Origin: Seleniivibrio woodruffii | GTDB taxonomy: Bacteria > Chrysiogenota > Deferribacteres > Deferribacterales > Geovibrionaceae | Assembly (NCBI RefSeq): GCF_029267515.1 | Contig: NZ_JAJUIS010000004.1 | Coordinates: forward strand, 62,001-126,000 | Reading direction: 5' to 3' | DNA length: 64,000 nt | Shown here: positions 48,126-50,500 of the stretch, piece by piece | Position numbering within the stretch: the stretch's first letter is position 1 | Layout: every line of letters starts with the position of its first letter | Made by a program: the position numbers and the translations under genes | Notes under the pieces: generated by a model | What the model saw: the letters and a program-made list of their open reading frames with translations, nothing else | Databases searched by the model: none | What the model was told of the DNA's origin: nothing

Positions 48126-49316
48126 ATGGCGGATAAATCGGCATACGCTGCTGTGCAGCTCGGGCAAATTATTACGACTGTTCTAAAAAAGATGGCAGTC
48201 GAAAAATCGAAGGTGTCGTCTTCAACCATATCGAATTACCTTTCAGAAAATATGGAATTTAGAAATCTCGTTCAGACAGTCATGTCCGGCGGGGATAAAT
48301 CCGATGTTTTAAAATACGTAACCCCTCTGCGCGGGTTTGTTCCGGATCAGGGACTTAAAAGTGTTGAGGACATGGTTTTCGACCCGAAAAAATCCCACGA
48401 CGAGGCTATGGACGCCCTCCTGCGGACGCTTTCCGACCATCTTCTTTCGCTGGAAAAACGACAGCACAAGTTCAGCGCCTTCATCGACGACGTTTTTTCA
48501 AAATTCGTTAACCTTCAGGCTGACCTGACGAGCAGTCTCGGACACAACATAGAATTTGTGGAAAAAGATCTCGCCATGGATAAAAAACTGCTGAACGAAG
48601 CTCAGGATATGCACAGAATCCTCAAAAGTGAAGACTCAATCGAATATCTTAAATCAAAAATGCTCGATTCATTCTCCTCATTCGTGAACACTTTCGACCA
48701 GAAGACAACAACAAAAAGAGACCATCTCGGCACCATTGCCTCAGAATATTCAAATGTAAACAACGAGCTTGAGCAGTACAAGAAACAGGTTAACCAGCTC
48801 CAGACGGATCTCAACAGATATAAGAACGAATCCATTCAGGATCACATGACAGGGCTTTATAACCGCAAATATATGGATATCAAACTGGCAGAGGAAATTG
48901 ACCGTTTCAAAAGGATGGGGACTCCTTTCAGTGTCGTAATGGCGGATATAGATAAATTCAAGTCAGTCAACGACACATACGGGCATCAGGTTGGCGATCA
49001 GGTACTCAAGCACATGGCTCAGCTCATTAAAGAGAACATAAGAAAAACAGATTTCGCTTTCCGCTACGGCGGCGAGGAGTTTATGATCATGCTGGTGAAC
49101 GCCGATGTCAGAAACGCCGTGCATGTCTCCGAAATGATACGGAAAAAGCTGGAAGCCACCAATTTCAGCCTGAAAGACTGCTCTTTCAACGTAACAGCCA
49201 GCTTCGGCGTTGCACAGTTCAAACAGGACGACACAGCCGAGGCAGCAATTAAACTCGCCGACGAAAGGCTTTATACAGCAAAACAGTCAGGACGAAACAG
49301 GATAGTAAGCAGTTAA
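48126..49316 (+). CDS. GGDEF-domain diguanylate cyclase
   Basis: This is a soluble c-di-GMP synthase of 396 residues. The first 235 residues are helical without TM segments and end in a coiled coil (YSNVNNELEQYKKQVNQLQTDLNRYKNE). The GGDEF domain runs from about 238 (DHMTGLYNRKYMD), with the active site GGEEF at 315-319. An inhibitory RxxD site, RKTD (306-309), lies five residues before it. The enzyme should therefore be active and product-inhibited. The N-terminal sensor type is not recognised. Its stop overlaps that of the convergent marR within TTAA. Confidence 0.9.
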   Translation: MADKSAYAAVQLGQIITTVLKKMAVEKSKVSSSTISNYLSENMEFRNLVQTVMSGGDKSDVLKYVTPLRGFVPDQGLKSVEDMVFDPKKSHDEAMDALLRTLSDHLLSLEKRQHKFSAFIDDVFSKFVNLQADLTSSLGHNIEFVEKDLAMDKKLLNEAQDMHRILKSEDSIEYLKSKMLDSFSSFVNTFDQKTTTKRDHLGTIASEYSNVNNELEQYKKQVNQLQTDLNRYKNESIQDHMTGLYNRKYMDIKLAEEIDRFKRMGTPFSVVMADIDKFKSVNDTYGHQVGDQVLKHMAQLIKENIRKTDFAFRYGGEEFMIMLVNADVRNAVHVSEMIRKKLEATNFSLKDCSFNVTASFGVAQFKQDDTAEAAIKLADERLYTAKQSGRNRIVSS

Positions 49317-49756
49317 GGCAGTCTTGCGGAGATCATCCTTACGACTTTAAGCGTGGTTTCAAGCTCGTCCGCATTCAAGCCTCCACCATGTTCGTTTGCC
49401 CATGGAATCTGCTTCTCCATGACGGAGTTAAATCTTTTCATTCCCTCATCTGTCGGCACTATCTGTTTGGCTTTTTTGTGATAAGGATTATCCTCAAAAA
49501 TAACCAGACCGTTTTCGTATAACTCGTTGACAATCCTCTGAACACCCTGCCTTCTCAATCCCATTCTGGATGCAATTCGCGAAACTGTAATATTCTGTTC
49601 GCCGAAATATATCAATGCACCCATAACGTGCCATTTTGCGCTGGTCAGCCCATCTTCTTTCGCAAGTCTGTCACCTTCAAGAATAAGCTGTCCGTTCAGC
49701 CTGAACACCGCCAGTATAAGATCTGTATATTTCAACCCGGCTTCCGAATGCTGCAT
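49313..49756 (-). CDS. MarR-family transcriptional regulator
   Basis: This is a winged-helix regulator of 147 residues. The DNA-binding region is LTSAKWHVMGALIYFGEQNITVSRIASRMGLRRQGVQRIVNELYENGLVIFEDNPYHKKAKQI, with the wing at the last part. It is preceded by GAGGTGA. It is divergent from a four-helix membrane protein across a 78-bp gap holding an elaborate palindromic operator, so it very likely controls both genes. The inducer is unknown. Confidence 0.9.
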   Translation of the reverse strand: MQHSEAGLKYTDLILAVFRLNGQLILEGDRLAKEDGLTSAKWHVMGALIYFGEQNITVSRIASRMGLRRQGVQRIVNELYENGLVIFEDNPYHKKAKQIVPTDEGMKRFNSVMEKQIPWANEHGGGLNADELETTLKVVRMISARLP

Positions 49757-49775
49757 AACTTCACCTCAACTTTAT

Positions 49776-49816
49776 TATTGACAATACAATGTCATTATGA
49801 CAGCATATTGTCAATA
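49776..49816. promoter_or_regulatory. Nested triple-palindrome operator of marR and its divergent gene
   Basis: Three perfect palindromes are centred exactly 15 bp apart: TATTGACAATA (49776-49786), TGTCATTATGACA (49790-49802) and TATTGTCAATA (49806-49816). The outer two are also inverted copies of each other around the middle one, so the whole 41 bp is one dyad apart from the short spacers. It lies 20 bp from the marR start and 19 bp from the divergent ATG. Binding by the MarR protein is inferred. Confidence 0.8.
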
Positions 49817-49834
49817 TAAACCGGAGGTTTTGCC

Positions 49835-50329
49835 ATGAAACTAAGCACAAACGGACAGAAGATATTAAAAACAATACATATTTTTACCGCAGCATGCTGG
49901 GCGGCTGGTGGCTTTACTTTATGTTTGATGTACTTTCTGAAACAGGGGGTGAGTGACGGCGGCGAGCTTTACGGTATTAACAGCAGTATCCATTTCATTG
50001 ATACATATATAGTCGTTATTTTCGGAGCTATCGGCTGTCTGATAACAGGTTTTATCTATTCCATATTTACCAATTGGGGATTCTTTAAGCACCGCTGGCT
50101 GACTTTTAAATGGGTTGTTACTATCACGGCAATCCTTTTCGGAACCTTTTATCTTGGAGTATGGGAAAAAAATATGATGCTTATCTCAGGCAAACTGGGC
50201 ATCGCCGCACTTACAGACACTGCATATCTCTATAACCAGAAAATGAATCTGATATTCGGTTCGATTCAGAACGGAATAATAATATTCACTATTTATGTTT
50301 CGGTATTTAAGCCATGGAAAAAGAAATGA
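49835..50329 (+). CDS. Four-TM membrane protein (DUF2269-like)
   Basis: This is an inner-membrane protein of 164 residues with four hydrophobic helices, opening GQKILKTIHIFTAACWAAGGFTLCLMYFL and ending in a basic tail (KPWKKK). A CGGAGG ribosome site precedes the ATG. It resembles uncharacterised DUF2269-type integral membrane proteins, a judgement from pattern only. Being divergent from marR and sharing its operator, it is the likely regulated target. Function is unknown. Confidence 0.72.
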   Translation: MKLSTNGQKILKTIHIFTAACWAAGGFTLCLMYFLKQGVSDGGELYGINSSIHFIDTYIVVIFGAIGCLITGFIYSIFTNWGFFKHRWLTFKWVVTITAILFGTFYLGVWEKNMMLISGKLGIAALTDTAYLYNQKMNLIFGSIQNGIIIFTIYVSVFKPWKKK

Positions 50330-50376: not shown

Positions 50377-50499
50377 ATTGCTTTTTAGAACCGAGCAGTT
50401 CAAGGCGGACGATGAAAAATCAACGAGCATACATTAAGAGTATGTGAGGCAGATTTTTCTGAGGACAACGAAGAAATGCGAAGTGTTATAAAAGGCAAT
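50377..50499. repeat. Family A structured repeat, abutting a stop codon
   Basis: The element is 123 bp. Arms ATTGCTTTTTAGAAC (50377-50391) and GTTATAAAAGGCAAT (50485-50499) pair at 13 of 15 positions. The inner stem GAAAAATC/GATTTTTC (50414-50421 with 50452-50459) is perfect, and the apical stem CATAC/GTATG is perfect. Conserved blocks GAGCAGTTCAAGG and AATGCG are present. It ends 1 bp before the stop codon of the minus-strand MBL hydrolase. Confidence 0.85.
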
Positions 50500-50500
50500 A

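Follow-up and report, generated by a model that had tools for sequence, protein, structure and literature searches.

What is encoded by three perfect palindromes that lie evenly spaced between two divergent genes: three binding sites for a regulator, or parts of some other arrangement? The question arises in Seleniivibrio woodruffii, whose genus we take to belong to the Deferribacterota, within an analysed stretch of 64,000 nucleotides (the window). Here a marR gene (49313-49756, minus strand) and a partner gene (49835-50329, plus strand) diverge from an intergenic gap of 78 bp (49757-49834).

The 147-aa marR product, a MarR_2 winged-helix regulator with an RRQGVQR segment, is the presumed binder of the gap. 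It belongs to the MarR family based on its match to PF12802 (MarR_2; 50.2 bits, cut-off 27), and scores just under the cut-off for PF01047 (24.5 bits against 24.6). None of the NCBIfam models reached its cut-off for this protein, which could not be placed in a named subfamily. The partner is a 164-aa DUF2269-like membrane protein that scores 27.2 bits against Pfam DUF2269, below the cut-off of 28, with an E value of 4.8e-6 across the whole model; its orthologue in genome G024 exceeds that cut-off with 32.0 bits. The partner scores 21.6 bits against TIGR00701 (HemJ; cut-off 138), and such a sub-threshold resemblance is too weak to assign it a HemJ function. In the relative G027 (L006), the noncoding stretch after the DUF2269-like gene (50390-50500) seems to be well conserved, possibly as a terminator or repeat element.

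Palindromes and half-sites in the gap

The earlier note had described three perfect palindromes centred at 49781, 49796, and 49811 between marR and its partner, and we recovered them at the same coordinates and with the same even spacing (15 + 15 bp). They comprise a left outer palindrome, TATTGACAATA (49776-49786, arm 5 bp), a middle one, TGTCATTATGACA (49790-49802, arm 6 bp), and a right outer one, TATTGTCAATA (49806-49816), the symmetry of which reaches 1 bp further on each side, giving an arm of 6 bp. Odd palindromes with arms of at least 5 bp number 76 in the window, and the triple in the marR gap is the sole evenly spaced one among them within 60 bp. Dinucleotide shuffles of the 78-bp gap (n = 20,000) yielded at least one such palindrome in 2,152 cases and at least three in 2, and chance is not the explanation for the three palindromes. 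By itself, TATTGACAATA is unremarkable, with single copies at two further places in the genome.

The same bases can also be read as TGACA-N6-TGTCA-N3-TGACA-N6-TGTCA, that is, as four half-sites forming two 16-bp inverted repeats. The marR-proximal site 1 (49778-49795; core 49779-49794, dyad 49786.5) reads TTGACA-ATACAA-TGTCAT and the partner-proximal site 2 (49797-49814; core 49798-49813, dyad 49805.5) reads ATGACA-GCATAT-TGTCAA, each scoring 11/12 against TTGACA-N6-TGTCAA. Their cores are separated by 3 bp and their dyads lie 19 bp, or ~1.8 helical turns, apart. Two copies of TGACA-N6-TGTCA occurred in none of the 20,000 shuffled gaps, and exact copies are found at four places in the 2.83-Mb genome, two of them within 35 bp in the marR gap. 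The remaining two lie within long open reading frames (L029 and L026), and a genome-wide regulon based on the exact motif was accordingly rejected. With up to three mismatches, the double pattern has one further place in the S. woodruffii genome (L069), which is intergenic, near a Fur-like open reading frame, and possibly a terminator.

The palindromes follow from these half-sites. The left and right palindromes coincide with the outer half-sites of sites 1 and 2, which look like stand-alone palindromes because TTGACAA is approximately its own reverse complement, and the middle palindrome arises from the opposed inner half-sites on either side of N3. The gap element is thus probably a pair of adjacent predicted sites for the neighboring MarR repressor rather than three palindromic units.

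Conservation of the motif and its spacing

A MarR protein search of 50 genomes from the phylum gave matches in 10, of which five, including S. woodruffii and all from its family, exceeded 120 bits. In all four orthologous loci (G027, G018, G024, and G025) marR is divergent from a DUF2269-type gene, with an extra small membrane protein gene between the two in G024 and G025. With the gaps aligned in marR orientation and S. woodruffii as the reference, half-site letters were kept at 20/20 positions in G027, 18/20 in G018, and 19/20 in G025, as against 11/15, 8/15, and 10/15 for the spacers and 4/6, 6/6, and 3/6 for the outer flanks. The G024 half-sites are degenerate (TAGCA, TTACA, TAGCA, and TGTCA), and the marR-proximal site is the only clear one there.

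The palindromes fared differently. Their arms at the three centers, 6/6/5 in S. woodruffii in this orientation, are 4/6/2, 2/0/3, 2/0/6, and 0/0/3 in the orthologues; G027, the nearest relative and of the same genus, has a left outer arm of 2 and an intact middle arm (6), the latter being reduced to 0 in the other three. Conservation of the proposed three sites thus extends to the half-site spacing, with the exception of the degenerate G024, and not to the palindrome arms. Since half-sites and spacing persist where palindromes are lost, the palindrome was the wrong unit. When 49 genomes of the phylum were scanned for the double pattern (35 bp, up to three mismatches), it turned up at seven places in six of them: the marR gaps of G000, G027, G018, and G025 (that of G024 was missed) and three places elsewhere. 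In G024, a double-operator-like sequence with three mismatches (L065, C1:1198254-1198288) lies among other genes, ~27 kb from a second marR of that genome, and is possibly a further target.

Beyond the phylum, a tblastn search of 72,556 plasmid records with the MarR protein found homologues in 56, and loci from 27 of these were analysed (16, then 11). The first set comprised 17 relatives, namely the four orthologues and 13 plasmid loci, with the S. woodruffii locus excluded. Left out of it were L035 and L047, which are close to L036 and score 12/12 and 11/12, and L037, an unannotated and possibly broken gene scoring 7/12. The later 11 loci, Actinomycetota included, were picked from the same list of homologues once the motif was known from the first set; for L060-L062 we scanned upstream of the gene preceding marR, the presumed operon start, as decided after the annotation was seen. 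Locus counts are not fully independent: L061 and L062, for example, come from one genus, and L036, L045, L053, and L054 are all Rhizobiaceae.

Pairs of TTGACA and TGTCAA were scanned in the 17 relatives in three orientations with gaps of 0-12 and compared with shuffles. The convergent arrangement with a gap of 6, TTGACA-N6-TGTCAA, scored best (z 21.3), and all other orientations and gaps fell below it and were discarded, including the runner-up, a direct repeat with a gap of 5 (z 13.4) attributable to the near self-complementarity of TTGACAA, and everted pairs with gaps of 12 (z 10.0) and 1 (z 9.6). The outer and middle palindromes reached z 8.5 and 8.7 in the same relatives, in part because they overlap the same half-sites. 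In the later set, a site of at least 9/12 was present in 10/11 loci (mean 0.9 and maximum 3 in 300 shuffled sets). Both sets together have such a site in 26/28 loci and one of at least 11/12 in 14/28, the two loci lacking a primary site at 9/12 being L041 (8/12) and L052 (6/12). Among control MarR genes from outside the subfamily, 4/11 have an upstream site of at least 9/12 and 0/11 one of at least 11/12; the reading frame of control L022 is doubtful. The genes beside motif-bearing marR genes vary (DUF2269, antibiotic biosynthesis monooxygenase, DJ-1/PfpI, and others), and we infer that the MarR protein encoded alongside is the binder of TTGACA-N6-TGTCAA because the motif tracks the MarR subfamily across different partner genes.

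DUF2269 or similar genes are also found near marR on plasmids of Methylocystis, Azospirillum, and Synechocystis. A second small membrane protein of ~145-155 aa, for which no Pfam model matched above its cut-off, recurs beside marR genes of the subfamily (L017:977-1420, L033:230-673, L041:290-730, L043:1659-2120, and L016:963-1403). In two Synechocystis plasmid loci (L050 and L051), a gene for a different MarR diverges from a membrane protein gene, and the near-palindrome between them, TAGTTAGCGAGCTAACTA, is also a different one; the gene pairing thus recurs with another operator.

The 19-bp doubling was assessed by treating the highest-scoring site per locus as primary and seeking a second site of at least 7/12 at offsets of 1-60 bp. 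A second site at exactly 19 bp was present in 16/26 loci (10/16 in the first set and 6/10 in the later one), compared with means of 0.5, 0.22, and 0.78 and maxima of 3, 4, and 4 in flank shuffles of the first set, the later set, and all loci, respectively. The next most frequent offset, 11 bp, occurred nine times because the half-sites are near-palindromic, and every other offset at most five times. Pairs at 19 bp include examples from Streptomyces (L060) and Vibrio (L061); that of L062 (9/12 + 8/12) is not among the 16, an equal-scoring site elsewhere having been taken as primary. Doubling is frequent without being obligatory, as 10/26 loci with a primary site had no second site of at least 7/12 at 19 bp and some are spaced otherwise, such as L053, L044, and L046 with pairs at 27-29 bp. 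This predicted double-operator layout recurs beside relatives of the MarR repressor in several bacterial phyla.

Proposed repression at a probable double operator and rival readings

TTGACA is the sigma-70 -35 consensus, and the outer half-sites of the S. woodruffii element supply one candidate -35 element for each gene. The candidate for marR (49809-49814, minus strand) is the outer half-site of site 2 and is followed, after a 17-bp spacer, by a candidate -10 element, CATTGT (49791-49786, minus strand), with TGA just before it; the same position reads CATTAT in G027, TATTGT in G018, and CAGTAT in G025. The candidate for the partner (49778-49783, plus strand) is the outer half-site of site 1, with no good -10 element at 16-18 bp. 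A scan for consensus promoters listed neither promoter, and the placement for marR is therefore one that we infer from the letters. The element itself has the features expected of an operator sequence, namely an inverted repeat occurring twice upstream of marR and conserved, at a promoter that is putative.

We propose that each 16-18-bp inverted repeat TTGACA-N6-TGTCAA would bind one MarR dimer, one half-site per subunit, and that two dimers would sit side by side across ~40 bp with their dyads 19 bp apart. Published MarR footprints are ~22-24 bp (PMC3737563), so that two such dimers would touch or slightly overlap. At this spacing they would be ~70 degrees off in-phase (by arithmetic, at 10.5 bp per turn). 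Because the candidate -35-like elements of marR and of the DUF2269-like gene coincide with outer half-sites, the dimer pair would block RNA polymerase at both promoters, resulting in autorepression and repression of the partner, and a ligand or stress that frees MarR from the DNA would derepress both. We consider it probable that the element is a double operator of MarR, with two dimer sites lying over -35-like elements and repressing both genes; it is likely that both are repressed by bound MarR and released by a signal, and possible that the two dimers bind cooperatively.

The earlier note had proposed three MarR dimer sites at 15-bp intervals, with the outer pair on the same face of the DNA and the middle site on the opposite face. 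The perfection and even spacing of a triple unique in the window speak for such an arrangement, as do the intact middle palindrome of G027 and the excess of outer and middle palindromes over shuffles in relatives. That excess is partly implied by the half-sites, however, and falls well short of the convergent repeat (z 8.5 and 8.7 vs 21.3); the arms decay in the orthologues while half-sites and N6 gap persist, and in several relatives a perfect TTGACA-N6-TGTCAA is not accompanied by the triple. We rejected the three-site model as very improbable, and with it falls the argument from helical faces, two dyads at ~1.8 turns taking the place of three centers. What stands of the proposal is an ordered, nonrandom, probable MarR operator common to two divergent genes, with conserved spacing. 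A pair of mere TTGACA promoter elements, or an element for another regulator, is hardly more credible. The -35 consensus is indeed present in half-sites on both strands, and we believe that the TGACA-N6-TGTCA layout resembles CRP/FNR-type sites, but the motif tracks MarR homologues across phyla and partner genes, and promoter elements leave the inverted N6 repeat unexplained.

A stronger contender, though still on balance unlikely, is that one site is strongly bound and the second copy is degenerate or vestigial, with the 19 bp reflecting common descent or promoter overlap. The 10/26 loci without a good second site are consistent with this, as is the weakness of the second copy (7-8 of 12) in 11 of the 16 loci having a pair at 19 bp, and a TTGACA half-site could persist as a -35 element. 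Against it, exactly 19 bp is favored across phyla with differing partner genes, and in S. woodruffii both copies score 11/12. Returning to the double operator, we tentatively suggest, as an idea that could well prove wrong, that members of the subfamily, which occurs in Deferribacterota, Pseudomonadota, and Actinomycetota, share a fixed TTGACA-N6-TGTCAT-N-ATGACA-N6-TGTCAA at which two dimers would cooperate via contact between the proteins or a DNA distortion common to both and the 19-bp distance would be selected.

On the two-site reading, the S. woodruffii element is an ordinary kind of switch that is unusually well ordered, and what a specialist might think worth a test is its fixed 19-bp doubling. 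In open-licence PMC text we did not find TTGACA-N6-TGTCAA reported for a MarR protein, which is weak evidence of absence, or DUF2269 together with MarR. For a widespread MarR group without an NCBIfam name, the analysis offers a binding code that can be tested, TTGACA-N6-TGTCAA with frequent doubling at 19 bp, by which target genes of the group can be predicted in many genomes. It also provides a clean setting in which to study possible cooperation of two MarR dimers at a fixed spacing, which, if the fixed double-operator reading is true, would itself be under selection. A further lesson is that near-palindromic half-sites may mislead the assignment of operator units.

Comparison with known MarR systems

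Among proteins of known structure, PDB 4b8x, a possible MarR regulator that is presumably SCO3205 of Streptomyces coelicolor, is a sequence relative of the marR product. SCO3205 is likewise a MarR protein with two operators in a divergent gap, thought to control both genes, and its sites are nearly two-fold symmetric, with 24-bp footprints and nanomolar binding (PMC3737563). It differs in its 12-bp consensus, TTnAAnnnTCAA, and in that its two sites gave separate, non-overlapping peaks, whereas the S. woodruffii cores are 3 bp apart (PMC3737563). YvmB/PchR of Bacillus subtilis is also a MarR protein that regulates its own gene, and several boxes lie in the intergenic region between the divergent genes, but the box is a different one of 14 bp, GTTYMMYMGTAAAC, and the boxes are far apart (PMC4992311).

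Overlap with promoter elements has a parallel in CouR of Rhodococcus jostii, which has a MarR box, cATTGA--TCAATg, over the TTGAcA -35 boxes of divergent promoters (PMC4737184). There a single box serves both promoters, the half-sites are closer together, with a spacer given in the paper as 5 bp, and the ligand is known, p-coumaroyl-CoA (PMC4737184). In the crystal structure of Rv2887 from Mycobacterium tuberculosis, a single DNA of 30 bp carries two MarR dimers (PMC5526998). Its dimers lie on nearly opposite faces and its site is GC-rich, poorly palindromic, and of another sequence (PMC5526998), but the structure provides a precedent for adjacent MarR dimers such as those that we propose for S. 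woodruffii.
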